Assembly: GCF_029948125.1 (NCBI RefSeq) | Contig: NZ_JASAMB010000002.1 | Coordinates: forward strand, 1 to 64,000 | Direction of reading: 5' to 3' | Source: Catellatospora sp. KI3 | GTDB lineage: Bacteria; Actinomycetota; Actinomycetes; Mycobacteriales; Micromonosporaceae | DNA: 64,000 bases | In this document: in pieces, positions 125 to 36,139 of the stretch | Layout: each line of letters opens with the position of its first letter | Position numbering within the stretch: the stretch's first letter is position 1 | Translations under genes and position numbers: made by a program | The notes under the pieces: generated by a model | What the model was told of the DNA's origin: nothing | The model's database searches: none | What the model saw: only the letters and a program-made list of their open reading frames with translations

Positions 125-181
125 GCTGCTGGCGCCCGGCTCTGCTGCTGGCGCCCGCCTCCGCTGCTGGCGCCCGCCTCC
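125..181. repeat. Three tandem copies of a 19-bp unit
   Basis: Units starting at 125, 144 and 163 share GCTGCTGGCGCCCG and differ slightly at their ends. They begin one base after the stop codon of the truncated regulator. No function is evident. Confidence 0.7.
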
Positions 182-190
182 GCGGGCGCG

Positions 191-283
191 GCGATCGGCC
201 TCTCAGCCGACCGCATCGGCGCGGCGCTGCATCGCCTTCGGCGATGTCACGCGCCTTTACCGATGCGGTCGGCGGCCGATCGC
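191..283. terminator. Large nested inverted repeat downstream of the truncated regulator
   Basis: Outer arms GCGATCGGCC (191-200) and GGCCGATCGC (274-283) enclose inner arms around GACCGCATCGG (209-219) and CCGATGCGGTC (260-270), with a further small hairpin CATCGCC-TTC-GGCGATG at 230-246. This could act as a factor-independent terminator or a cruciform. There is no T-run, as is usual for actinobacterial terminators. Confidence 0.55.
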
Positions 284-290
284 TTGTCGC

Positions 291-397
291 GGGTCGGTGT
301 CCCAAGGACATGGCGGTGGGCGGCGATCGGTTTAGTGCGGGTCGGTATCCCAAGGACATGGCGGTGGGCGGCGATCGGTTTGGTGCGGGTCGGTGTC
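291..397. repeat. 48-bp tandem repeat, about 2.2 copies, in front of mshD
   Basis: Unit starts at 291, 339 and 387 share GGGTCGGT. The two full units differ at only two positions I can see. They end about 35 bp upstream of the mshD start, so they overlap the probable promoter region. The 125-432 gap holds only this, the 19-bp repeat and the nested hairpin. Confidence 0.75.
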
Positions 398-432
398 GAA
401 GGGCTTTAACAGTGCACGGCTAGGCTTCGGGC

Positions 433-1386
433 ATGTCCAGCGAGTCGTGCCAGGTAGAGCGGCGGGTCAGGCTCAGCGCCGACGAGGTGGGGACGGTGCT
501 GGAGCTTGCCAGCGCGGCCGGGGACACCGATGGCGCTTTTCCGTTGTCCGAGCACACTGTGCTGCACCTGCGGCACGGGGGTGACGTTCCTTCGGTGCAT
601 CTGATCGCCCGGGAGCGGGGTGGGCGGCTCGCGGGGTATGCCCATGTCGATACCACTGACGTGGTCGACGGGCCGTCTGCGGAGCTGGTGGTGCATCCGA
701 TGGGGCGGCGGCACGGGCTGGGGCGTGCGCTGGTGCTGGCGGCGCTCGCGGCCGCCGGCGAAGCGGATCCGGCGGGGCGGCTGCGGCTGTGGGCGCACGG
801 CGACCATCCGTCGGCCAGCGCGCTGGCGCTGTCGCTGAACTTCCGGCGGGCCCGGGTGCTGTGGCAGCTGCGCCGCTCGCTGTACGCCGAGATGCCGGCG
901 CCGGTGCTGCCCGACGGGGTGGTGCTGCGACCGTTCCGGCCGGGCGCCGACGAGGAGCAGTGGCTCGCGCTGAACGCCCGCGCCTTCGCCGACCATCCCG
1001 AGCAGGGGCGGTGGACCCCGGCGGACCTGCGGGTGCGGATGGCCGAGCCGTGGTTCGACCCGGCCGGGTTCCTGCTGGCCGAACGGGAGGGCAGGCTGGT
1101 CGGGTTCCACTGGACCAAGGTGCACGGGGAGCTGCGGGGCGAGGGCGGCGAGCACCCGCACCACCACGACCCGATCGGCGAGGTGTACGTGCTGGGCGTG
1201 GACCCGGCCGAGCACGGCAGCGGGCTGGGCCGCGCGCTGACCTCCGCCGGGCTGCGGCACCTGCGCTCGCACGGCCTGGACCAGGTCATGCTGTATGTGG
1301 ACGAGTCCAACCACGCCGCGGTCGCCCTGTACACCCGGCTCGGCTTCGCCCGGTGGTCGACAGACGTTCTGTTCCAACGGATCTGA
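433..1386 (+). CDS. mshD: Mycothiol acetyltransferase MshD
   Basis: A 317-residue protein with two GNAT acetyltransferase halves, the standard length and build of MshD. The enzyme transfers acetyl from acetyl-CoA to Cys-GlcN-Ins, the last step of mycothiol synthesis in the cytoplasm. The C-terminal domain carries the acetyl-CoA loop region GSGLGRAL and ends with the family-typical YVDESNHAAVALYTRLGF segment. The N-terminal half, with HPMGRRHGLGRALV, is the degenerate second GNAT fold. The ATG at 433 gives a full-length product. Its place between a GlnR-type gene and pst genes matches mycobacteria. mshA, the first committed gene of the same pathway, lies 25 kb away in this window. Confidence 0.93.
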   Translation: MSSESCQVERRVRLSADEVGTVLELASAAGDTDGAFPLSEHTVLHLRHGGDVPSVHLIARERGGRLAGYAHVDTTDVVDGPSAELVVHPMGRRHGLGRALVLAALAAAGEADPAGRLRLWAHGDHPSASALALSLNFRRARVLWQLRRSLYAEMPAPVLPDGVVLRPFRPGADEEQWLALNARAFADHPEQGRWTPADLRVRMAEPWFDPAGFLLAEREGRLVGFHWTKVHGELRGEGGEHPHHHDPIGEVYVLGVDPAEHGSGLGRALTSAGLRHLRSHGLDQVMLYVDESNHAAVALYTRLGFARWSTDVLFQRI

Positions 1387-1425
1387 GGGTTCCGCACCGG
1401 GGCGCCACGGTCCACCATCTAGGAC

Positions 1426-1905
1426 GTGGCAGATACCGAACCCCGGGACCCGTGGGCCGTGCCCGCCGACTTCACCGCCTGGGTGGAGCGCCGGTTGCGG
1501 CCCCTGGAGCGCGGCGCCCGCCTGCTGGAGGGCGAGGAGCAGGCCGGCCAGAGCATGGCGCGCGAGCTGCTGACCGTGGTCGCCGCGCGGTGGCCGCGGC
1601 TGCGCCGGACCGACACCCGCCGGGGCGAGCCCGCCGGCACCGCCGCGGACCGCTACCTGCGGCAGCTGTTCGACCGGGAGGCCGCCGACGCGGGAGTGCG
1701 CGACATCCGGCTGGACCTCGACCGGGCGCTGCCGGTGCCGGAGCTGCCGCAGCCGTCGTACGCGAAGACGCTGACCGTGGGCGACGAGGCCGCGCTGCTG
1801 TGGGAGCGGGCCAAGTCGACCTCGCGGCGGCGCCTGCTGATCGGCGCCGGGCTGGTCGGATTCGCCCTGGTCGCCGCCCTCTGCCGGATGTTCTACGGCG
1901 GTTAG
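1426..1905 (+). CDS. Small protein with one C-terminal membrane anchor, function unknown
   Basis: A 159-residue protein from GTG at 1426. Most of it is hydrophilic and Arg/Glu-rich. It ends in one hydrophobic segment, RLLIGAGLVGFALVAALC, preceded by several arginines, so it is probably a tail-anchored or single-pass membrane protein with the bulk in the cytoplasm. It starts 39 bp after mshD and is likely co-transcribed with it. I recognise no family. Codon usage with strong G/C third positions supports real coding. Confidence 0.65.
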   Translation: MADTEPRDPWAVPADFTAWVERRLRPLERGARLLEGEEQAGQSMARELLTVVAARWPRLRRTDTRRGEPAGTAADRYLRQLFDREAADAGVRDIRLDLDRALPVPELPQPSYAKTLTVGDEAALLWERAKSTSRRRLLIGAGLVGFALVAALCRMFYGG

Positions 1906-2005
1906 GCGTCACTTGGTGAAAACGGAGGAGAAGAGTTGTGAGTATGTGACGGACAAGTACTGTCTGACCTTTTGATGACGTTGGGAATTTACCAACGGCG
2001 GCGCT

Positions 2006-2017
2006 ACCCTGCAGGGT
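2006..2017. promoter_or_regulatory. Perfect 12-bp palindrome abutting the start codon of the ImmA-type gene
   Basis: ACCCTGCAGGGT ends at the base before the ATG at 2018. Two further small dyads lie upstream: CGTTGG/CCAACG (1979-1984 and 1992-1997) and GACA/TGTC (1952-1955 and 1961-1964). Such sites are plausible operators for the HTH domain encoded directly downstream, giving autoregulation as in toxin-antitoxin loci. This is inference from position and symmetry only. Confidence 0.4.
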
Positions 2018-3103
2018 ATGGCAGACAGCATCGGGGAGCGAGTTCGAGCGCTGCTACCGACTGACCGGACGCATCGGGAAGTCGCCGCGAGCGTCGAGAT
2101 GACGCCAGACGCCTTCTCGCGTTCTCTCAGTGGCCAGCGCGGATTTTCTGCGATCGAAGTAGCTCGCATCGCGATATATCTTGGTGTCGACGTCCACTAC
2201 TTGATCACGGGAGAGGGCGACCCACTGCGCCTGCGCATGGTTGCCCGGCATGACTTCGACCTGGCGACAGGTCGACACCAGGTGAGTGGGGCCAGCGGTG
2301 ATCAAGACGTTCTCGACGATGTGGCGCTTGCCTATCGCCAGGTTTCGAACGCGGCTCTGTCGTCTTCACGCATCCCCTCAAGAGTCACCGACGTGTCCGA
2401 TGCCCTCGGCGAGGGGTTCGTCAGGCCGTTCATCAGTCGCTTGGAGGAGAGGCTCGGTGTCGACGTCGTCCGGCTACCCGGATTGTCGACGTCGTACAGT
2501 TTCACGCTCTCTGGAAGGGGAGTGATCCTGGTACCCGCAGACGGGAACTGGTTTCGCCAGAACTGGTCCTTGGCTCACGAACTGGGGCACCTGTCGCAGG
2601 GGCACACTGACCCGGAGACCTCCGGCAGTGAGCGGGATCGCCATGAAGAAGCCGCGAACGCCTTCGCGGCCGAACTGCTGCTGCCTGAGGCGCAGATGCG
2701 GGCGCGGGGTTGGGCCGAGAGCACGGTCGAGGCGCTGGCCGACGCGATCTGGGAGCGGGGCATCTCCACTAGTGCGCTGGCGAACCGGCTGCGAAGCCTG
2801 CACATCCCAGTGCCGCGCGTCGTCGAAGAATGGAGGAACCAGCCGACGCAGCGGTTGATCCGGCAGCACTGGGATCATGATCAGTTCAGCGATCCGGTTA
2901 CAAGGCGGATGGAGGATGCGGCGACGCGGCGGTTTCCGCTGGCGTTGCAGCAGGCCCACGTAACGCTGATCGCCAGGGGCGTGCTGCCGAAGGCGACACT
3001 GGCCTGGATGCTCGGGGTACCGGAGAGCACGTTGGAGATCGATGAACCGGCGCCATCGGCACCCATGTCAGCGGATGCGCTCACCAGCGCACTGGGCCTG
3101 TAG
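2018..3103 (+). CDS. HTH (XRE) plus ImmA/IrrE-type zinc metallopeptidase
   Basis: A 361-residue protein. Residues about 5-70 form a Cro/C1-like helix-turn-helix. Residues about 130-240 form an ImmA/IrrE peptidase domain with the zinc motif HELGH at 187-191 and the downstream EEAANAFAAELLLP segment carrying the third ligand around residue 210-211. Proteins of this build usually cleave or inactivate a repressor or antitoxin in response to a signal. The next gene, a PIN-domain protein, follows after only 7 bp, so the pair behaves like a toxin-antitoxin or stress-response module. The region is noticeably less GC-rich than its neighbours, which fits acquisition by transfer. Confidence 0.85.
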   Translation: MADSIGERVRALLPTDRTHREVAASVEMTPDAFSRSLSGQRGFSAIEVARIAIYLGVDVHYLITGEGDPLRLRMVARHDFDLATGRHQVSGASGDQDVLDDVALAYRQVSNAALSSSRIPSRVTDVSDALGEGFVRPFISRLEERLGVDVVRLPGLSTSYSFTLSGRGVILVPADGNWFRQNWSLAHELGHLSQGHTDPETSGSERDRHEEAANAFAAELLLPEAQMRARGWAESTVEALADAIWERGISTSALANRLRSLHIPVPRVVEEWRNQPTQRLIRQHWDHDQFSDPVTRRMEDAATRRFPLALQQAHVTLIARGVLPKATLAWMLGVPESTLEIDEPAPSAPMSADALTSALGL

Positions 3104-3110
3104 GAGTCCG

Positions 3111-3659
3111 GTGTCTTCGCTGCTGGTGCTACCCGACAATACGGTTCTGATCAACTTCGCGCTTCTCAACCGCATGGACCTGCTGGCAAAACTCGTCAAG
3201 GACAACGGCGCGTGGTGTGCGACGGTGGCCTCGGAGTGCGATCAGTCGGCGAAAGTTCCTGGCCTGGAGTCGTTGGCGGATGCCCATGGCATTTTCGGTG
3301 ATCCGCTGAGGCCGCAGAGCCCTACCGAGCACGTCATGACTCGGGCCTTCCGGACCCGGCTGGCCCGACCCGGCGACGGACCGTTCCGCCACCTCGGCGA
3401 GTCCGAGACCTTGGCGATCATGGCAAGCCGGTCTTTGCGCGGCATCTTCGTCAGTGATGACAGGGCGGTCTCGGTGATCGCTCGTGAGCAGGGGATCAGG
3501 ATCGTCACCACCTTCGAACTGCTCCGAGCGGCCTGCCGCTCGGGGATGGTGGATGCGGACACCGCCTGGTCGTATCTGCAGAGACTGCGGCAAGAAGGCC
3601 GTGGCTGGCCACCCGGCGTCTATGAGCGGTCATCGTTCGAGAAGTGGCTGGCCGCCTAG
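3111..3659 (+). CDS. PIN-domain protein, partner of the ImmA-type peptidase
   Basis: The GTG at 3111 is preceded by GGAG and gives 182 residues that open with LLVLPDNTVLINFALLNRMD, the first strand and acidic residue of a PIN-like nuclease fold. A later GESETLAIMASR and a VSDDRAV segment supply further acidic residues expected in a PIN active site. PIN proteins are Mg-dependent ribonucleases, often toxins. An upstream in-frame ATG at 3042 would overlap the previous gene by over 60 bp and add residues that do not look coding, so I prefer 3111. Whether this is a toxin, or a substrate of the upstream protease, cannot be told from sequence. Confidence 0.75.
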   Translation: MSSLLVLPDNTVLINFALLNRMDLLAKLVKDNGAWCATVASECDQSAKVPGLESLADAHGIFGDPLRPQSPTEHVMTRAFRTRLARPGDGPFRHLGESETLAIMASRSLRGIFVSDDRAVSVIAREQGIRIVTTFELLRAACRSGMVDADTAWSYLQRLRQEGRGWPPGVYERSSFEKWLAA

Positions 3660-28317: not shown

Positions 28318-29841
28318 TTAACGCTTGCAGCTGTAGGTGAACTCGGTCGCGCCCTCGACCACCTGCGCGCCGAGCACCCGCAGCGTGGCGCTGGCCTTCT
28401 TGGTCCCGACACCCTTGAATTCCCAGTACAGGTGGACGTCGATCTTGTTCTGACCGGAGCGGAACGTCTGCTCCAGCACGCCCGAGCTCTGCCCGTCCAT
28501 CCGCACCCACTCGTACGTGACCTTGCCCGCGCTGCCGTCGGTGTGGATGGTGCCGACCAGGTCCACCTTCACGTCGCACTTGTCGTCGATCGGCTGCGCC
28601 AGCTTCACCGTGACGCTGGAGACCGCCAGCGGTTCGGCATGCTGCGACTGCCACCACTGCCAGCCGATGACCCCGAACGCCACCAGCAGCGCGACCAGGG
28701 CCAGCGCGCTCAGGAACGCGACGATCCGGTTCATCACCGACCGCCTGCGCCGGGGCGGGATGTTGGCGGCCGCGAGCTGCCAGGCCGGTGGCGCGGGCGG
28801 CACGCCCTGCCCGAAGCGCAGGTTGACGTCCGGCTGCGCCGACGCCGCCGGGCCGCCCGGCTCCTGGCTGGCAACGCGGCGCTGCTCCTCGGCGGCGCGA
28901 TTGCCCAGGCGGGTCGCCCCGTCTGGCGGCACCGGCGCGGCTGCGGGCGGCGCGGACTGCTGCGGGGGTACGACCGCAGCCTGCGGCGGCACCCCGGCGG
29001 GCGCCTGCCGGGGCGGTACCGGAGCCGAGTGCGAACCGCCGATGAGCTGCACCGTCGCCTCGCTGCCGGGCGCCACCGGCGGCAGCGCCACCGGCGGGGC
29101 CTTCGTCACCACCGCGCCGGCCGCCGCGGCGGTCGCGTTCGCGGCCAGCGCCTTGATCGGCTCGCGGTCGCCGAACCCGGCCACCTTCGCCCCGCCCGTG
29201 GTCAGCACGGCCAGCCCGGCGGTAAGCCCGGCGCTGCCGCCGGTCGCCTCGGCCCGCTGCGCCGCCTGGCGCAGCAGCTGCGCCACGGCCGGGTCGGCGT
29301 TGCGCCCGGCCAGGTCGTTGAGCAGGCGGGCCCAGGCGGTCGCGTCGTGGCCCGGACCGGGGGTGTCCCCGGCGAGCGCGGGCGCGTAGCCGACCTCGGC
29401 GAGCAGGGCCGCCCCGGCGCCGCTGAGCACGATCGTGTTCGGCTGCAGGTCGCCGTGGGCGAGCTCGGCCTGGTGCAGTTTCAGCAGCGTCTGCGCGGTG
29501 TCCGTGGCGATGAGCAGCGCGGTGGCGGGCGGCATCGCGACGTTCGCGCCGAACACCTGCGCCAGCGTCGGCGTCGGCGACGCCGACGTGACCAGCCAGG
29601 TGTACCGGCCGTCGACGACCTGCTCGATCACGTTGAGCAGGCCGGGCAGGCGCAGCGCCGCCACCGCCTGCACCACCTGGCCCACCCGCTGGGCGGTCGC
29701 CTGATCGGCCAGGGCGCGCTCCTCTAGCCGCACCCCGCCGCGCACCTTGCCGTCCGCAGTGGACAGCAGGTGCCAGGTGCCGAGCCGTCCGGCCCGCCCC
29801 TGCCCCCGCACGGTGTACTTACCGCCGATCATGTCCGCCAC
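28318..29841 (-). CDS. Membrane-anchored pseudokinase with extracellular domain
   Basis: A 507-residue protein from GTG 29841 (ATG 29832 also possible). The N-terminal 240 residues have the outline of a Ser/Thr kinase: HGDLQPNTIVL at 129-139 aligns with the catalytic loop. However, the glycine loop and VAIK lysine are absent and the DFG is replaced (LLAEVGYAP), so it should not phosphorylate. A Pro/Ala-rich linker follows, then one membrane helix (about 374-395) and a roughly 110-residue extracellular beta-rich domain with cysteines (KCDVKV ... YSCKR). It starts 14 bp after the active kinase gene and probably regulates or is bound by it. Confidence 0.82.
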   Translation of the reverse strand: MADMIGGKYTVRGQGRAGRLGTWHLLSTADGKVRGGVRLEERALADQATAQRVGQVVQAVAALRLPGLLNVIEQVVDGRYTWLVTSASPTPTLAQVFGANVAMPPATALLIATDTAQTLLKLHQAELAHGDLQPNTIVLSGAGAALLAEVGYAPALAGDTPGPGHDATAWARLLNDLAGRNADPAVAQLLRQAAQRAEATGGSAGLTAGLAVLTTGGAKVAGFGDREPIKALAANATAAAAGAVVTKAPPVALPPVAPGSEATVQLIGGSHSAPVPPRQAPAGVPPQAAVVPPQQSAPPAAAPVPPDGATRLGNRAAEEQRRVASQEPGGPAASAQPDVNLRFGQGVPPAPPAWQLAAANIPPRRRRSVMNRIVAFLSALALVALLVAFGVIGWQWWQSQHAEPLAVSSVTVKLAQPIDDKCDVKVDLVGTIHTDGSAGKVTYEWVRMDGQSSGVLEQTFRSGQNKIDVHLYWEFKGVGTKKASATLRVLGAQVVEGATEFTYSCKR

Positions 29842-29855
29842 CGCGGAGCCGCCTT

Positions 29856-31454
29856 TCAGCCGATGATGCAGCCCTGATTCGGGATGATGGGAGCAGGGTA
29901 AAGCTTGGTGGGAATTACCGGTCCGCCGTACTGGCTGCGGATGGACATCTCCAGGTATGTGTTGCACGGCAGGGTCATGCCGGACAGGTTCACGACGTGG
30001 TTGAAGGTCGTGCTCGTCTCCTCGGATACCACCGGCACGATGACCAGCTTCGGCGTGTACTGGGTCAGCTCCGTGCCGTCGGAGTTGGTCACGGCGAAGC
30101 GGAGCGTCAGCGTGTACTTACCGGGGTTCGCCAGTTTCACCAGGACGGCGGCGCGGACCTCCGTGCCGATCGCATCCTGGAAACACTGCTCCTTGTACCA
30201 CCAGCACAGGCTGGGCCGGGCCAGGCTGTCCACTGGCGCGATCGGGATGGTCGGCGACGGCGAGGGGGACGGCTTGGGGCTGGGCTTCTTGCTCGGGCTC
30301 GGCGACGGCTCCGGCGACTCCGACGGGGAGGGCGACGGCTCCGCCGAGGGTGACGGGGACGGAGACGGCTCGCTCGACGGAGTCGGGGACGGCAGCGGCG
30401 AAGGGCTGGGCGAGGAGACCGCCGGGGCGGGCGGCTTCGGGTCGCCCATGAGCGCGACGCCGGCCGCGCCGCCCGCGCCGAGCACCAGCACGGTCACGCA
30501 CGCGGTGAGCACCCAGAAGGCGCGTTTGGACATACCGAGGATGGTGGTGGCGACGGCGCTGGCGTCGGCCTGCATGCCCGCGAGGGGGAACAGCAGCGCC
30601 AGCAGCAGCGCGCGCCGGGCCAGCTTGCCGCGGCCGTCCTCCTCCCAGTCCGGGCCGTACCCGGCACCGGCCACCGCCTCCAGCTCGTGCAGGAACGTGT
30701 CCGCGTCGCGGGGGCGCTGGCGGGGATCCTTGGCCAGGCCCCGGCGCACCAGCCCGCGTACCGCCTCGGGGACGTCGTCGGTGGGCACCGGCGCCTGCTC
30801 GTGCTGGCGGCGCAGTCCGGCCAGGTCACCGGGTGCCCGAAACGGCGGCCGGCCGACCAGGCACTCGAAGAACGTGGCGGTGGCGGCGTAGATGTCGGTG
30901 GAGGGGCTCGCGGCGGCACCGGCCCACTGCTCCGGCGCCATGTACGACGGCGTGCCCGCCAGCGGCCCCTGCCGCCCGCTGCGCGCCGCGATGCCGAAGT
31001 CGGCCAGCTTGCTCTGGCCGTTGCCGTCGACCAGCACGTTCTCGGGCTTGTAGTCGCGGTGCACCACGCCGCGGGCGTGCGCGGCGGCCAGGCCCAGCAG
31101 CGAGCCCTTGAGCACCACCAGCGCGGCCTGCGGCTCGGTCGGCCCCTGCTCGCGCAGGATGGCGCGCAGCGCCACCCCTTCGACCAGCTCCATCACGATC
31201 GCGGCGCCGCCGGGCGACTCGACGTACTCGTACAGCCGGGCGACCTCCGGGGAGTCCACCTCGGACATGATCCGGGCCTCGGCCCGGAACGCGCGGATGA
31301 ACTCCTCGTCGCCGCGCAGGTGCTCGGCCAGGTACTTGATGGCGACCTTCACCCCGGTCGCGTCGTGCTGCGCGAGCACGACCAGTCCCGAGGCCCCCCG
31401 GCCCAGCTCGCGCACCTCGGTGTACCCGGGCACGGTCCACATCGGCATGTTCAT
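29856..31454 (-). CDS. Receptor-type serine/threonine protein kinase
   Basis: A 532-residue transmembrane kinase. All catalytic elements are intact: glycine loop GRGASG (18-23... V), Lys40 in VAIK, HRDYKPEN with Asp134 and Asn139, DFG at 152-154, and GTPSYMAPEQW. After the kinase domain (to about 262) come a short linker, one membrane helix (about 312-336), a Ser-Pro repeat stalk (about 341-405) and a roughly 125-residue extracellular domain with several cysteines. The stalk is typical of wall-spanning actinobacterial proteins. It follows the FHA/protease gene by 37 bp; the FHA domain there is the obvious phosphothreonine reader. Confidence 0.93.
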   Translation of the reverse strand: MNMPMWTVPGYTEVRELGRGASGLVVLAQHDATGVKVAIKYLAEHLRGDEEFIRAFRAEARIMSEVDSPEVARLYEYVESPGGAAIVMELVEGVALRAILREQGPTEPQAALVVLKGSLLGLAAAHARGVVHRDYKPENVLVDGNGQSKLADFGIAARSGRQGPLAGTPSYMAPEQWAGAAASPSTDIYAATATFFECLVGRPPFRAPGDLAGLRRQHEQAPVPTDDVPEAVRGLVRRGLAKDPRQRPRDADTFLHELEAVAGAGYGPDWEEDGRGKLARRALLLALLFPLAGMQADASAVATTILGMSKRAFWVLTACVTVLVLGAGGAAGVALMGDPKPPAPAVSSPSPSPLPSPTPSSEPSPSPSPSAEPSPSPSESPEPSPSPSKKPSPKPSPSPSPTIPIAPVDSLARPSLCWWYKEQCFQDAIGTEVRAAVLVKLANPGKYTLTLRFAVTNSDGTELTQYTPKLVIVPVVSEETSTTFNHVVNLSGMTLPCNTYLEMSIRSQYGGPVIPTKLYPAPIIPNQGCIIG

Positions 31455-31491
31455 GCCGTCCCCCTCATACCTTCCGGAAAGCCTTGCCCGC

Positions 31492-33243
31492 TCATGCCGA
31501 CGCCTCCGCTGGCGTCGCGCCGCGGCGGGACTTGATGAAGCCGACCAGCTTGCGCAGCAGCCGGTACCAGACCGGGAACATGATCAGGCCGATGAGCAGC
31601 ACGATGACCACGACGTCGATGCCGGGCGGCAGGTACTCCTCGACCAGGCCGCCGAGGCGGTCTCGCCAGGCCAGGAAGCCCAGCAGCACGAACAGGCCGG
31701 TCCCGGCGACGGCGGCGAAGCCGTACGCGGCCATGCCGACCTGGCGCAGACCCGGCCTGCGCCCGGCCTTCAGGTCGGCCCAGATGCCCCTGGTGAAGTA
31801 GGCCGCCGCCTCCTCGCGCAGCCGCGGCAGGCGCAGCCCGTCCGCGAGCGCCTGGTACCCGTCCAGCGGCATCAGCGGATTGAGGTTGTACAGCGTGTTC
31901 AGGTAGAGGCCGAAGGCCAGCTGGTAGGCGACCCCGGCCACGTGCGGCTCGGGCAGCCAGGCGGCGGTCATCGCGCACATGCCGGCGATCGCCGCGGTCG
32001 ACAGCGGCCCGGACAGGGTCACCACGATGCGCGACCAGCGGCTGCCGAACCACATGTCCGAGGTGTCCACGAACGCGAACGGCATGCCCATCATCAGCAT
32101 GAACCCGCCCCGGGTCACGGTGCGGCCGTACGACTTCACCGCCAGCGCGTGCGCGGACTCGTGCACCACCAGCGCCAGCAGGTAGCCCAGGCCGACCGCG
32201 ATCGCGCCGCCGACACCGGCACCCTGGAGGTCGAACAGGTTCTGGTCGGCGCTCGCCACCACGGTGGCGTACAGCCCGACCGCGATCACCGCCCAGAGCA
32301 GGGCCACGCCGGTACGGGTGAAGAAGCGCCAGCCGAAGGCCCGGTACAGCCGCCCGAAGAAGCCGTCCAGCCCCCTGATGGAGACCTCCATCCGCAGCAG
32401 CGCGTTCAGCACCGCGCGCCCGATCCGCTTCAGCAGCCGGGGCTTCTCGGGTTCCTGCTGCCCGTGCACCCCGCGCACCAGCTCCAGCGCGGCGAACGTG
32501 CGCAGGGTCCGCTCGATGCGGGGCAGGGCCAGCTCACCGAACTCCTGCGCGTACGCGAACAGCAGGTCGCGCACGGTGTTCTCGCCGTCGAGCTGGTGCC
32601 ACAGGAACACGTCGCGCTCGTCGAGCTGCAGGTACTGCCCGGTGCGGGTGTTGCGCAGCACCCACTGCTGGTCCCCGCGCACGTCCGGCACCTGCTTGAG
32701 GGCCCAGCCGCTGCGCCGCTTCGGCCGCGCCGACAGCGGCCCGCCCGCGGTGGGTGCGAGCTCGGGCAGCATCGGCTGGCCGGACTGCGGCGGGAGCAGC
32801 ATGCTGTGCTCGACCCCGGCCACCATGGTCTTGGAGCCGATCGCGGCGCTGCGCGGCTGGGCGAAGCGCACCGGCACGTCGCCGACGTACAGCTCGATCT
32901 CGTCGGTGAGCAGCATCGCGTTGCCGTGCATGGTGTGCCCGGCGACGGTGGTGCCGTTGAAGGAGTTCAGGTCCTCGATCTCGAAGCCGTGCGGGGTGCG
33001 GGTGACGCGGGCGTGCGCGCGCGAGACGCTGCCGTCGTCGAGCACCACGTCGTTGTCGGCGCCGCGGCCGATCGTGGTCACCGGCTTGACCAGCTCCACC
33101 GTGCGGGTCTGCCCGTCCGGGGTGCGCCAGCGCAGCTCAGGCGCGGCGAAAGCCTCCACTTTGGCGCCCTTGCGCAGCGTGCCGCAGTGCAGGCAGTAGG
33201 GGTAGTCCCGGCGCAGGTGCACGTGGCAGGCGTGGCACAACAT
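31492..33243 (-). CDS. Zinc ribbon-FHA-PqqD-M50 intramembrane zinc protease
   Basis: A 583-residue protein from ATG 33243. Order: zinc ribbon with Cys3, Cys6, Cys17 and Cys20; FHA domain (about 35-130; TIGRGADNDVVLDD, SVSRAHARV, DLNSFNGTTV); PqqD-like recognition domain (about 190-258; YLQLDERDVFLWHQLDG); and an M50-type membrane peptidase with HESAH at 361-365 and NPLMPLDGY with Asp461, over about six helices. M50-PqqD proteins are annotated as peptide zinc metalloproteases in RiPP-like loci, where PqqD-type domains bind leader peptides. An FHA domain on such a protease couples it to kinase signalling. Upstream of it in the operon is a leader-like protein, the candidate substrate. Confidence 0.88.
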   Translation of the reverse strand: MLCHACHVHLRRDYPYCLHCGTLRKGAKVEAFAAPELRWRTPDGQTRTVELVKPVTTIGRGADNDVVLDDGSVSRAHARVTRTPHGFEIEDLNSFNGTTVAGHTMHGNAMLLTDEIELYVGDVPVRFAQPRSAAIGSKTMVAGVEHSMLLPPQSGQPMLPELAPTAGGPLSARPKRRSGWALKQVPDVRGDQQWVLRNTRTGQYLQLDERDVFLWHQLDGENTVRDLLFAYAQEFGELALPRIERTLRTFAALELVRGVHGQQEPEKPRLLKRIGRAVLNALLRMEVSIRGLDGFFGRLYRAFGWRFFTRTGVALLWAVIAVGLYATVVASADQNLFDLQGAGVGGAIAVGLGYLLALVVHESAHALAVKSYGRTVTRGGFMLMMGMPFAFVDTSDMWFGSRWSRIVVTLSGPLSTAAIAGMCAMTAAWLPEPHVAGVAYQLAFGLYLNTLYNLNPLMPLDGYQALADGLRLPRLREEAAAYFTRGIWADLKAGRRPGLRQVGMAAYGFAAVAGTGLFVLLGFLAWRDRLGGLVEEYLPPGIDVVVIVLLIGLIMFPVWYRLLRKLVGFIKSRRGATPAEASA

Positions 33244-33485
33244 CTTTCGGCCTCTCGGGGGCGACGAAGGTCGGCCCGCGCCCGGCAGTTCCGTGGAGGG
33301 GTGCTGCGCCGGACGGGCCACCCTCGTGGGGGCGTGCCAGATCATAAGCGGCCGAACGGGTGTACGGGGTCGGCTGACTGCTTTACGACCCTTCACCGAT
33401 CAGCTGGTCCGGGCTGCTGAACTGCTGCCGGGCGACGGGGAGGCGACGGGGGACACACTCCCCGCCGCCCGGCAGGGTCTTCGGG

Positions 33486-34271
33486 TCAGGCCGCGGCCGT
33501 ACCCTCGTCATCGGACTTCTTGCCGGCCCGGCCCGCGACCGCACCGGCGATGCCGCCGGCGACCACGCCCGCGGCCAGCCCGGCGCCGCCGATCAGCAGG
33601 CCGGTGGTGCCGATGCCGCCGTCGGCCTGCTCGGCCGCGACCGGCTGCACCGCGGCCGGGTCCGCGCCGGTCGCCTCGCCGGTCTGCAGCGGACCGACCT
33701 CGACGGCCGACTCCGGCTCCGGGTCGGGCAGCGGCGGCGGCGGGGGCGCGTCGGTGCTGTGCGAGGAGCCGTGCGAACCGTGGTCCGACCCGTGGTCGGA
33801 GCCGTGGCTCGACCCGTGGTCGCCGGAGTCGCCGTCGTCGTGCGTCAGCGGCGGTGGCAGCGGCTCGGGGTCGCCGCCGTCGGTCGGCGGGTCGAGCGGG
33901 TGGATGTCGATCGGGTGCAGGTCGATCGGGCCGATCGGGAACAGCGGGTGGATCGGCGGGTCCGGGTGTACCGGGTCGACGATGACGCCCGGGGGCAGGT
34001 GGATCACGTCGAGCCCCGGGTCCGGCGGTTCGAAGTGCGGGGTCTCCAGCAGGCCGGCCAGGCCGCCGGTGCCGATGCCCGACTTGGACAGGCGGGCGCC
34101 GAGCGCGGTGGGCCCGGCCCCGGCGGACGCGTCGGCCAGGCCGCGCAGCTGCTCGGTCTCGTCGGGCGTGAGGCCGTACTGTGCGGCGACGGCCTCCGGG
34201 TTGGCGCGGGCGTGCCGAGCGAACTCGGGGTCCACCGCCATCCGTGCGATCAGATCGCGGAACTGGGACAT
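33486..34271 (-). CDS. Leader-like N-terminus plus Pro/His/Asp-rich protein with hydrophobic C-terminal segment
   Basis: A 261-residue protein of unrecognised family. Residues 1-45 (FRDLIARMAVDPEFARHA, NPEAVAAQYGLTPDETEQL) look like the small helical domain found in Nif11/Os1348-type RiPP leader peptides. Then come a Gly/Ala linker, a stretch dense in Pro, His, Asp and Ile (PIGPIDLHPIDIHPLDPP), a His-Ser-Gly-Asp repeat tract (GSDHGSDHGSHGSSHS), and a glycine-rich hydrophobic C-terminus (GLLIGGAGLAAGVVAGGIAG). It is first gene of the minus-strand operon and divergent from the LuxR gene. It could be the substrate of the FHA-PqqD-M50 protease, be secreted, or bind metal. None of this is proven. 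Confidence 0.7.
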   Translation of the reverse strand: MSQFRDLIARMAVDPEFARHARANPEAVAAQYGLTPDETEQLRGLADASAGAGPTALGARLSKSGIGTGGLAGLLETPHFEPPDPGLDVIHLPPGVIVDPVHPDPPIHPLFPIGPIDLHPIDIHPLDPPTDGGDPEPLPPPLTHDDGDSGDHGSSHGSDHGSDHGSHGSSHSTDAPPPPPLPDPEPESAVEVGPLQTGEATGADPAAVQPVAAEQADGGIGTTGLLIGGAGLAAGVVAGGIAGAVAGRAGKKSDDEGTAAA

Positions 34272-34444: not shown

Positions 34445-36139
34445 GTGGACCACGAGCAGGCCGCGCGGCTGCTGGCCGAGCGCGTCGGGCGGCCCGTGCC
34501 GCCGCGCCTGGTCGAGCAGCTGCTGCGGCGTACCGACGCCGACCCGGCGCTGCTGTCGGCCGTGGCCGACCAGGTCGACCCGGACGGCGACGTGCTGCAC
34601 CGCATCCCGCTGCGCTGGCCGCCCGAGCAGGTCGCGGCGGTACGGGCGGCGCTGGCGGCGCTCGGCCCGCACGGCCGCGCCGTGGCGGGCGCGGGCGCGG
34701 TCATCGGGCGCGAGTTCGACCTGGCCATCCTGGAGGGCGCCTGCCCCGACACCGACGTGCCGACCGGGCTGGAGGAGGCCGAGGAGGCCGGGCTGGTGCG
34801 GCCGCTGGCCGGGCAGGTCTTCGGCTTCGTCCGGGCCCTGGACCGCGAGGTCTGCTACGAGGCGCTGGGCACCCGGCAGCGGGCCGCGCTGCACGAGCGG
34901 GTCGCCGCGGCGCTGGTCCGGCTGGGGGCGCTGGGCGGCACGCGCGCGGCGACCGTACCGGAGCTGGCCCTGCACACCGCCGAGGCCGCCGCCCTGGGCG
35001 GCCCCGAGCGACTCGACGCCGCGGTGGCCGCCTCGGCCGCCGCCGGTGCGGCCGCCGCCGACGAGGGCGCGCACGACCTGGCCGCCGGCTACCTGGCCCA
35101 GGCCGCCCTGTTCGCCGGGCGGGCCGGCTGGGCGCCGGGGCAGTCCGGGCGGCTGCTGGCCGCCGGGGGCACGGCCCGGCTGCGCGCGGCGACCACGGCG
35201 GGCGCCCGCGAGGCGGGCCGCGCCTCGCTGCTCGGCGCGCTCCGCCTCGGCCTGCGCGCCGGTGACCCCGGCCTGGTCGGCGCGGCCGCCCTCGGCCTCG
35301 GCCCCCGCCCCAGCCTGGGTGCGCTGGCGGGCGACCGCGCCGCCCCCGCCGACCCGGCCCGCCTGGACGCCCTGCGCCAGGCCGCGAGCCTGCTCCCGCT
35401 CGCGGGCGCCCTTGCGCCCGAACTGCGCTCGACCGCCGCCCGCGTCGCCGCCCGCCTCGCCCTCGAGGAAAGGAAGGGACCCCTCTTATCGCTTTCCGAG
35501 GTGGAAGGGTCCCTTCCCAACGCGGGTGCGGTCGCGCTGGAGGTGGCGCGGGCGAGCGGGGACCCGCGCGCGGTGGCCGAGGCGCTGCTCGCCGCCGATC
35601 AAGACCTCGACCAGGTGGTACGGGAGGCGGCCGCGCTGCACGACCCCGAGCTGCTGTCCCGAGCGTACGACCGCGCCGCCGCGGCCGCCGTCGCCGCCGG
35701 GGAGCGCACCCGCGCCGCGCAGCTGCTCACCGAACTCGCCGCCCTGGGCCGGACGATCTCGCGTGACGTCCGCCCGCCCGCCTTCGTCCGCTGGTACGCC
35801 CTGCGCGCCACGGCCGAGCTGGCGGTGCTGCGCGGCACCCTCGACCAGGCGGCAGCCGCGGCCGCGCTGAGCGCCGGCGTGGCGGTCGACCCTGGCGCGG
35901 CCGAGGCCGCCGACGCGGCACTGCGCGAGTACGGCGGGCGCCGGGGCGGGCCGGACGGGCTGACCGCGCGGGAGCGGGAGGTGCTGGCCTGGGCACTGCG
36001 CGGGACGCCCGCCCGGGAGATCGCCGAGGCGCTGTACCTGGGCGAGCGGACGGTCGAGACGCACCTGGCGAGCATCTACCGCAAGCTCGGCGTACGGACC
36101 CGGATCGAGTTGATCAAGAAGTTGGGTGACGGTAGCTAA
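34445..36139 (+). CDS. LuxR-family transcriptional regulator, LAL-like without P-loop
   Basis: A 564-residue protein from GTG 34445 (GGAGAGGGGAG upstream). The C-terminal HTH is LTAREREVLAWALRGTPAREIAEAL with ERTVETHLASIYRKLGV. The N-terminal 150 residues (GPHGRAVAGAGAVIGREFDLA ... LALHTAEAAALGG, about 80-190) resemble the region after the ATPase in large LAL regulators, and the middle is TPR-like alpha-helical. No Walker motif is present, so it is a shortened LAL protein. Residues about 343-359 are encoded by an inserted family C repeat. It is divergent from the kinase/protease operon with 173 bp between starts, and is the likely local regulator. Confidence 0.82.
   Translation: MDHEQAARLLAERVGRPVPPRLVEQLLRRTDADPALLSAVADQVDPDGDVLHRIPLRWPPEQVAAVRAALAALGPHGRAVAGAGAVIGREFDLAILEGACPDTDVPTGLEEAEEAGLVRPLAGQVFGFVRALDREVCYEALGTRQRAALHERVAAALVRLGALGGTRAATVPELALHTAEAAALGGPERLDAAVAASAAAGAAAADEGAHDLAAGYLAQAALFAGRAGWAPGQSGRLLAAGGTARLRAATTAGAREAGRASLLGALRLGLRAGDPGLVGAAALGLGPRPSLGALAGDRAAPADPARLDALRQAASLLPLAGALAPELRSTAARVAARLALEERKGPLLSLSEVEGSLPNAGAVALEVARASGDPRAVAEALLAADQDLDQVVREAAALHDPELLSRAYDRAAAAAVAAGERTRAAQLLTELAALGRTISRDVRPPAFVRWYALRATAELAVLRGTLDQAAAAAALSAGVAVDPGAAEAADAALREYGGRRGGPDGLTAREREVLAWALRGTPAREIAEALYLGERTVETHLASIYRKLGVRTRIELIKKLGDGS
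35471..35520. repeat. Family C repeat inserted in frame inside the LuxR gene
   Basis: AGGAAGGGACCCCTCTTATC at 35471 and GGTGGAAGGGTCCCTTCC at 35500-35517 are the two ends of a known type of Micromonosporaceae intergenic repeat. Here it keeps the frame open and encodes KGPLLSLSEVEGSLPN between two helical segments. Confidence 0.8.

Follow-up and report, generated by a model that had tools for sequence, protein, structure and literature searches.

A four-gene locus of Catellatospora linking a leader-bearing, low-complexity protein to an FHA-PqqD-M50 protease, a receptor kinase and a pseudokinase: a candidate phospho-regulated processing system

We analyzed a stretch of 64,000 nucleotides from Catellatospora sp. 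KI3 (contig NZ_JASAMB010000002.1, positions 1 to 64,000; hereafter the window) and found that four of its genes, which we name A, B, C and D, belong to a set that stands at one locus in eight genera, which is more than chance. Gene A encodes an acidic, low-complexity protein headed by a leader domain like those of ribosomally synthesized and post-translationally modified peptides (RiPPs), B joins an FHA domain and a PqqD-type domain (a RiPP recognition element, RRE) to an intramembrane protease, C is a receptor kinase and D a membrane protein with a pseudokinase part. Our proposal, on which we consider the scales to be evenly balanced, is that together they process low-complexity proteins at the membrane, guided by the leader and regulated by phosphorylation.

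The four genes occupy positions 28318-34271, all on the minus strand, as do the features described below unless stated otherwise. The presumed substrate A (33486-34271, 261 residues) consists of a leader, an acidic body rich in Pro, Asp and His, and, toward the C-terminus, a glycine-zipper hydrophobic segment; B (31492-33243, 583 residues, ATG start) is a zinc ribbon-FHA-PqqD(RRE)-M50 intramembrane metalloprotease; C (29856-31454, 532 residues) is a transmembrane receptor Ser/Thr kinase with a hypervariable ectodomain; and D (28318-29841, 507 residues, GTG start) runs from pseudokinase part through linker and transmembrane helix to ectodomain, a longer open reading frame (to 29967) being one that would overlap C. 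The gaps are 242 bp between A and B, 37 bp between B and C and 14 bp between C and D, in agreement with a first-pass annotation that had described four same-strand genes separated by 14, 37 and about 240 bp. Genes were called with a simple codon-usage caller, and A genes and starts were corrected by frame searches; loci and genomes are cited below by L and G numbers.

Among 61 genomes (the window's own and 60 relatives) full-length matches to B occur in 14, namely all 11 of the genus Catellatospora and three other genera of the family, and in these neighborhoods the order of a LuxR-type gene followed by A-B-C-D is kept wherever the contig reaches; some of the loci carry two A genes, one genus has an extra gene between C and D (L045), and two contigs end inside A (L042 and, as judged by eye, L043). 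A scan of named genomes with the B alignment gave 33 loci, hosted by Catellatospora, Hamadaea, Catelliglobosispora, Rhizocola, an unplaced Micromonosporaceae metagenome-assembled genome (MAG), 16 Streptomyces, two Actinomycetospora, a Jatrophihabitans MAG and a Chloroflexi MAG. A immediately precedes B in 27 of them, and the remaining six (L101, L102, L103, L110, L114 and L124) end at a contig edge within 1.4 kb; C is present in 31, the exceptions being L122, which starts inside D, and L127, and D in 32, the exception being L103, a 4-kb contig. The arrangement can vary: Actinomycetospora L121 reads C-D-A-B, in Hamadaea D lies a few kilobases off, and in G073 the set is split, the LuxR gene, A and C standing at one site, while some 30 kb along that contig lies a shorter B (a 507-residue frame) with a D-like gene after it, the latter called from one match to the pseudokinase part (E 1.2e-15). 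D is present in G072 as well. The first-pass annotation had raised the questions whether other genomes have the same four-gene order, which they do, and whether the leader gene is missing where the other three are conserved, which is not what these loci show.

Gene clustering of 27 loci placed B and D in all 27 and C in 25, while A formed no cluster because its body is too variable. An SDR gene cluster turned up in 10 of the 27 loci, from 7 groups, being part of the mshA neighborhood in Micromonosporaceae, and the MFS, LuxR and mshA clusters were confined to Micromonosporaceae (6 loci of 4 groups each). The recurrence of modifying enzymes and exporters was judged from the gene maps and clusters of these loci, without enzyme-by-enzyme hidden Markov models, and by that measure no RiPP modifying enzyme is conserved with the set. 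A transporter was considered as a further member and set aside, the MFS genes of the window lying beyond gpm and none having been seen with the set outside Micromonosporaceae. A tblastn search of B against 72,556 plasmid records (E ≤ 1e-30) gave no match that would speak for spread by plasmids.

The leader domain (residues 1-75; 34047-34271) is the most constant part of A, and the leader-like N-terminus noted at first pass proved to match the NHLP/Os1348 clan, albeit below cut-off. Residues 5-61 match NF038399 (Os1348 family NHLP clan) with E 2.2e-8 and 34.1 bits when the full-length protein is used, and the leader alone reaches E 1.7e-9 and 37.6 bits, still short of the 40-bit cut-off; all 30 leaders that we aligned match this model at E ≤ 0.01, the best at 1.3e-11. 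In the PDB the leader profile found Os1348 (6lk7, E 3.6e-4) and SonA-type RiPP precursors (E 0.007-0.014); its top match, the designed repeat 8vd6 (E 3.8e-5), looks spurious and sums sub-threshold stretches. The structure model of the leader has five helices (mean predicted local distance difference test score, pLDDT, 72), and its nearest Foldseek matches are borosin RiPP proteins, at non-significant E (best 2.0). The leader ends in a conserved motif with the consensus R-L-S-K-S-x-[LI], RLSKSGI in the window (residues 60-66; 34074-34094), which fits L(X)4L; an L(X)4L-like motif occurs in 33 of 36 leaders, and L(X)4L is the motif by which such leaders bind RRE domains (PMC12455567). Leaders are 77-97% identical in four relatives in which the middle of A is 18-63% identical, and in the closest relative the values are 100% and 80%.

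For B, we aligned the window protein with those of 31 of the 33 loci (32 rows, L104 and the frame-broken L126 being left out). Invariant in 32 of 32 rows are the zinc ribbon C3-C6-C17-C20 (33184-33237); G59, R60, S74, R75, H77, N96 and G97 of the FHA domain (residues 56-114; 32902-33078); H361, E362 and H365 of the zinc-binding motif HESAH (361-365; 32149-32163); the distal aspartate D461 in PLDG (459-462; 31858-31869); and G136 and T139 of G136-S-K-T139 (32827-32838), which lies in a low-confidence linker and is a candidate FHA self-ligand. B has the HExxH and the distal aspartate in LDG of a site-2 protease as well as the conserved phosphopeptide-binding residues and the fold of an FHA domain. 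Pfam matches are strong for FHA (E 3.4e-14) and below cut-off for PqqD (E 3.5e-4, 21.3 bits vs 23.4) and M50 (E 0.0031, 17.3 bits vs 27.2); at E ≤ 0.01 the 32 proteins match FHA in 32, M50 in 32 and PqqD in 31 cases. Residues 186-534 match the daptide leader-protease model NF041824 with E 4.1e-43 and 148 bits (cut-off 300), and this model finds 32 of 32 B proteins. The PqqD/RRE domain (about residues 180-258; 32470-32706) is placed by Pfam and the structure model, in which strands at 180-186, 192-198 and 204-207 are followed by helices at 209-217, 224-235 and 240-252; three strands and three helices are the PqqD/RRE topology. The domain series and active site read from the sequence at first pass, and the PqqD fold on which that annotation had staked its idea of a substrate, are borne out by the family matches, the invariant residues and the model. 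A fold search with whole B was filled by FHA domains and barely probed the PqqD and M50 parts; among the matches of the FHA domain was 3oun (the FhaA FHA domain with an Rv3910 domain). PDB matches of the PqqD stretch to designed trefoils and histactophilin look spurious.

Does the partnership of leader and protease reach beyond the four-gene set? In a set of 394 genomes from the class, to which the window's own belongs, 6 are matched by the leader model and 8 by the B model (4 at full length and 4 by the PqqD-M50 or M50 part), and all 6 leader-matched genomes fall within the 8, the leader lying within about 1.5 kb of the protease with one gene between them in two cases (Fisher p 5.6e-12 without phylogenetic correction). 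Two of the six, G231 and G371, hold a cluster of a different kind, described below. A third arrangement pairs leader proteins that carry Asp-rich DxDGDG repeats with M50-cNMP type proteins of about 1000-1160 residues; it occurs in three of the seven distant loci retrieved with the protease (L049-L051 of L048-L054) and in two of the four retrieved through weak leader matches (L090 and L093 of L090-L093). With weak leader matches also present outside the class, the leader domain is therefore a RiPP-type module of general use, and it pairs with this protease specifically in the families seen here.

The bodies that follow the leader are hypervariable, acidic and of low complexity, and range from about 100 to 3045 residues (whole A proteins from 175 to 3120). 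Bodies and leader-end motifs were counted in 36 A proteins, that of L126 being broken, and there is not one Cys in 18,936 body residues vs 127.3 expected (36 bodies, or 35 without L126), with acidic and basic residues standing at 2684 to 459. At E ≤ 0.01 Pfam gives no domain match for the two longest A proteins (2216 and 3120 residues) and only a sub-threshold leader match in that of the window; names for the bodies such as TSP3-like were given by eye and are presumptive on our part. The C-terminal hydrophobic segment (residues 224-247; 33531-33602) occurs in 19 of 36 A proteins, all from Micromonosporaceae, and is missing from the other 17.

Could A be the precursor of an ordinary RiPP-type cluster, from which B releases a C-terminal core as a small bioactive peptide while the kinase pair only regulates expression? 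The leader clan and an RRE joined to a site-2 protease are RiPP hallmarks, and across five Micromonosporaceae relatives the C-terminal 46 residues of A keep an identity of 52-80%, but such a core is hard to reconcile with proteins of such different lengths, with a C-terminal segment that was not found in the checked A proteins of Streptomyces, Actinomycetospora and Chloroflexi, with bodies free of Cys, and with gene maps in which no modifying enzyme recurs, and we regard this explanation as unlikely. The length, low complexity and Cys-free composition of the body, and the lack in the gene maps of a RiPP enzyme conserved with the set, make it probable that A is no RiPP precursor of the usual sort. 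The interpretation offered at first pass, that the kinase may gate cleavage or export of the leader-like protein with the pseudokinase as regulator, is supported in part.

A second explanation, regulated intramembrane proteolysis, would have A tethered in the membrane until B, after a kinase signal, frees a cytoplasmic part that changes gene expression, perhaps with the LuxR regulator. The intact site-2 protease residues of B, the hydrophobic segment where A has one and the LuxR gene that adjoins A in Micromonosporaceae speak for such a pathway; against it stand the hypervariability of the bodies, the 17 A proteins without that segment, the lack of Pfam domains just described, and the failure of the LuxR gene to cluster in Streptomyces loci, and we think it distinctly unlikely. 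Under a third explanation, for which we see very little likelihood, B is both protease and export route, and the pathway serves chiefly to secrete A, cleavage being incidental. The epipeptide protease EpeP is thought to perform both cleavage and export (review PMC10885120), and in the clustering of 27 loci an exporter does not recur beside A-D outside Micromonosporaceae; set against this, the passage of a 3120-residue protein through a membrane protease is hard to picture, and a general exporter encoded elsewhere in the genome could do the work.

Turning to the kinase pair, the reading of C as an intact receptor kinase was upheld by a Pkinase match with E 1.3e-45 and by VAIK, HRD and DFG in 17 of 17 rows. 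Its ectodomain differs even between species, and it is no PASTA kinase by the measures used, scoring 183 bits against the PknB model NF033483 (cut-off 450) and giving no PASTA match. D matches Pkinase weakly (E 4.6e-4); in 15 Micromonosporaceae rows the VAIK lysine is present in none and the DFG Asp is Glu in all 15. Among 15 more diverse D proteins that we aligned, Pfam Pkinase matches only 4, and two of the rest (L121 and L124) are without the pseudokinase part. The description of D as a pseudokinase with an extracellular domain holds for the window; the pseudokinase part is not constant among D proteins. In its general architecture D has a pseudokinase part joined by a linker to a single membrane helix and then to an ectodomain, with no MurJ-type flippase.

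It is in short motifs that C and D resemble each other. The linker of D is mostly unalignable apart from T-x-[LMVI]-G, usually followed by x-R, which in the window is TRLGNR (residues 310-315; 28897-28914) and which all 15 Micromonosporaceae rows and 19 of the 24 named loci contain; when 13 linkers, all motif-bearing, were shuffled by composition, T-x-[LM]-G-x-[RK] arose in 0-33 of 2000 shuffles. In the diverse alignment T310 and G313 are each kept in 14 of 15 proteins, as is RFGxGV, the motif ahead of the membrane helix (RFGQGV, residues 342-347; 28801-28818); most invariant columns lie in the ectodomain and none in the pseudokinase part (two rows being without it), and the D proteins of L121 and L124, which lack that part, carry 4 and 2 copies of the T-x-L-G motif. 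By sequence, then, D is most constant in its T-x-L-G motif, its RFGxGV motif and its ectodomain, not in its pseudokinase fold. A second Thr motif of D, E-x-T-[VIL]-x-L (EATVQL, residues 261-266; 29044-29061), is kept throughout the genus and also occurs in some relatives. In C, T-x-[LIMV]-G stands next to the membrane helix in 35 of 40 rows, among which five genomes are counted twice (L035/L096, L046/L105, L047/L106, L082/L125 and L083/L104), and appears in the window as TILG (residues 304-307; 30534-30545). These are candidate phosphothreonine docking sites for the FHA domain of B, and the main reason for taking them as such is that C and D, unlike membrane proteins encoded in a single operon beside an FHA protein, have a short Thr motif in common. 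As a further possible FHA ligand we considered the Thr of GPTALGAR in the leader of the window's A, a stretch that resembles the D motif; we dropped it because several other Micromonosporaceae have Q, V or M at this position and because the Thr is lost in Chloroflexi and in most Streptomyces.

Kinase, pseudokinase and FHA protein form a trio that fits the logic of PknB, MviN and FhaA (PMC12599244), and the ectodomains of C and D suggest sensing of the outside. The locus might on these grounds encode an envelope-homeostasis scaffold in which C, D and B form a cell-wall complex of the MviN/FhaA kind, A is a structural or decoy partner, and B cuts other membrane proteins; this would leave unexplained the constancy of the leader, higher than that of any other part of A, the position of A beside B in 27 of 33 loci, and the occurrence of the same type of leader beside FHA-free M50 proteins, and we judge it rather unlikely.

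How, then, might a leader-guided processing system work? A would be synthesized with a folded NHLP/Os1348-clan leader at its N-terminus, which the PqqD (RRE) domain of B would bind, including its L(X)4L-like end; the M50 site-2 protease of B would cleave A at the membrane, probably at a site immediately behind the leader, and the cut would free or export the Cys-free acidic body to the cell surface. Kinase C would read an outside signal via its variable ectodomain and may phosphorylate the Thr of T-x-L-G in its own juxtamembrane segment and in D, and the FHA domain of B could dock on those phosphothreonines, which would place or switch the protease much as FhaA is recruited once PknB has phosphorylated the MviN tail. 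The template for the docking step is MviN/FhaA, and that for leader recognition and cleavage is the daptide protease MpaP. A broader version, toward which we are somewhat more skeptical than convinced, is that this is a new pathway for proteins rather than peptides, in which a folded, RiPP-style leader would be a sorting tag that sends giant, Cys-free, fast-diverging surface proteins to an RRE-guided intramembrane protease, switched via FHA by a receptor kinase that shares with a partner receptor a T-x-L-G docking code.

A number of observations weigh against the proposed system. The leader of the window's A and the PqqD and M50 parts of its B all score below curated cut-offs, the structure model of B is moderate (mean pLDDT 67), and a PDB profile search with the PqqD stretch returned no RRE protein; in the M50-cNMP proteins, moreover, the PqqD part is placed by profile alignment, and Pfam found no PqqD in the two that were scanned. 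With regard to the pairing, two of the eight class genomes, G150 and G469, are matched in the protease part and not by the leader model; the leader model was trained on leaders adjoining B, so that the specificity test reaches similar leaders only; and among 296 genomes of the phylum nine outside the class have weak leader matches (E 4e-7 to 4e-5), which makes the clan wider than the system, one of the nine (G617) having a PqqD-M50 match with its M50 stretch near the leader. The Chloroflexi locus L127 has no C within 21.7 kb. The T-x-L-G motifs were noticed post hoc; the motif is missing from 5 of 40 C rows and from D in Hamadaea (L104 and L123) and L127, was not seen in the D of L107, where the contig ends in D, or of L126, which is broken, and in C is preceded by a hydrophobic stretch that leaves its topology unsure. 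Finally, as regards the route by which a long body would exit, nine Streptomyces A proteins that were checked have no hydrophobic segment, and no exporter recurs beside A-D outside Micromonosporaceae synteny in the clustering of 27 loci.

In the broader version, surface coating or adhesion in these actinomycetes would be a signal-controlled, leader-gated process. If the proposal is true, leader peptides would be able to tag whole proteins, up to thousands of residues long, for sorting. It would also join RiPP leader recognition and Ser/Thr phospho-signaling, fields that were not seen together in the literature searched, and would supply an example of a signal-gated RRE protease, predicting T-x-L-G as a short FHA docking code. 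A function would be suggested as well for otherwise unplaceable low-complexity proteins of Streptomyces and rare actinomycetes.

Two further features flank A. Upstream, a divergent LuxR-type regulator (34445-36139, plus strand) adjoins A in Micromonosporaceae loci; in gene clustering it did not turn up in Streptomyces loci. Directly after the A stop, folding predicts a hairpin (33422-33476; -46.7 kcal/mol, with a z of -6.3 that is optimistic, being based on mononucleotide shuffles and the best of sliding windows), a possible attenuator or 3' stabilizer, and consensus scans of the A-B gap found no terminator and no promoter, the hairpin having no T run. A strong hairpin is present in the Micromonosporaceae A-B gaps tested, near the A stop in most, and that of the window recurs in relatives with sequence changes in both arms; outside the family, four gaps were inspected, one of 8 nt in L107 (Streptomyces) and three of 30-46 nt in L121, L122 and L127, these three being without a comparable hairpin. 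The hairpin may stabilize or attenuate the message and so yield A in excess of B-D, which would fit A as substrate and B-D as machinery.

Several related proteins and clusters were seen along the way. Leader-only, orphan paralogs of A, about 100 residues long with a short charged tail end, lie beside an apparent proS in a conserved neighborhood, one in the window's own genome (G000:C2, L087:6271-6579) and counterparts in two other Catellatospora genomes (L088:6624-6938 and L089:7341-7655). The two Actinomycetospora A proteins (L121:3316-9966, 2216 residues; L122:592-9954, 3120 residues) share a similar C-terminal region that ends GKVLPWNW or GKILPWNW. In L127 (13430-21711) four further A-type genes stand downstream of D, three with Trp/Tyr-Asp repeats by eye, and two upstream genes resemble an FHA protein and an ATPase by eye. 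G072 encodes a 258-residue leader protein (L084:8435-9211) with a body of CDGHS/CNGH repeats, possibly metal-binding and unlike the Cys-free bodies beside B. A different kind of cluster in G231 and G371 (L144:5540-10704 and L145) combines an MNIO (PF05114, E 2e-54; families were scanned in L144 of G231 only), a 97-residue leader peptide, a RimK-like protein and an M50-cNMP-redoxin fusion of 950 residues, and its 97-residue Os1348-type precursor exceeds the NF038399 cut-off. In G003 (L054:1469-2608) three near-identical peptides of 58 residues lie beside a 403-residue PqqD-M50-like protein and an ABC transporter, in a neighborhood whose genes by eye resemble an azole RiPP cluster.

In comparison with known systems, the parts of this locus are of known kinds, and for their four-gene combination we found no description in the open-licence literature: among the matches listed there, none describes FHA, RRE and site-2 protease together or with a kinase pair, which agrees with the first-pass annotation's own lack of a precedent. 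The PE_PGRS proteins of mycobacteria likewise place a constant helical N-terminal domain on a hypervariable, glycine-rich body; theirs is another N-terminal family with type VII export, and we claim no homology to A. Os1348 and other NHLP-clan RiPP precursors share with A the leader profile (NF038399, 6lk7), the L(X)4L-like end and possibly the helices (PMC7726476, PMC12455567), but here the leader heads proteins of 175-3120 residues and no modifying enzyme recurs with the set. B resembles the daptide protease MpaP (NF041824), an intramembrane peptidase that depends on an RRE to take off the daptide leader (PMC10036551): in both an RRE lies N-terminal to a site-2 protease beside a leader-bearing protein, and residues 186-534 of B cover nearly the whole model. 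B differs in adding a zinc ribbon and an FHA domain, in scoring half of the equivalog cut-off, in sitting with a kinase and a pseudokinase, and in having as its neighbor a long protein without daptide enzymes; between A and D of the window there is no room for a daptide-type decarboxylase, aminotransferase, methyltransferase or short Thr-ending precursor, and in the gene maps and clusters no such enzymes recur across groups. The epipeptide proteases YydH/LiaK/EpeP (NF058609), which also process a leader-bearing precursor, show M50 similarity to 32 of 32 B proteins at E ≤ 0.01, whereas B has RRE and FHA domains and no epimerase or ABC exporter gene recurs beside it. Similarly, the TMcin protease TmcP (preprint PMC13252029) is a site-2 protease that removes the leader of a precursor with a membrane helix, and some A proteins have a C-terminal hydrophobic segment, although the TMcin products are small antimicrobials and the main text of that preprint makes no mention of RRE, FHA or kinase. 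Lastly, in the mycobacterial PknB-MviN-FhaA system, as here, a Ser/Thr kinase, a membrane pseudokinase and an FHA protein as reader come together, the pseudokinase tail of MviN being phosphorylated by PknB and then recruiting FhaA (PMC12599244); in the locus described here there is no lipid II flippase part, the FHA domain is fused to a putative leader protease, and D can drop its pseudokinase part and keep its Thr motif.

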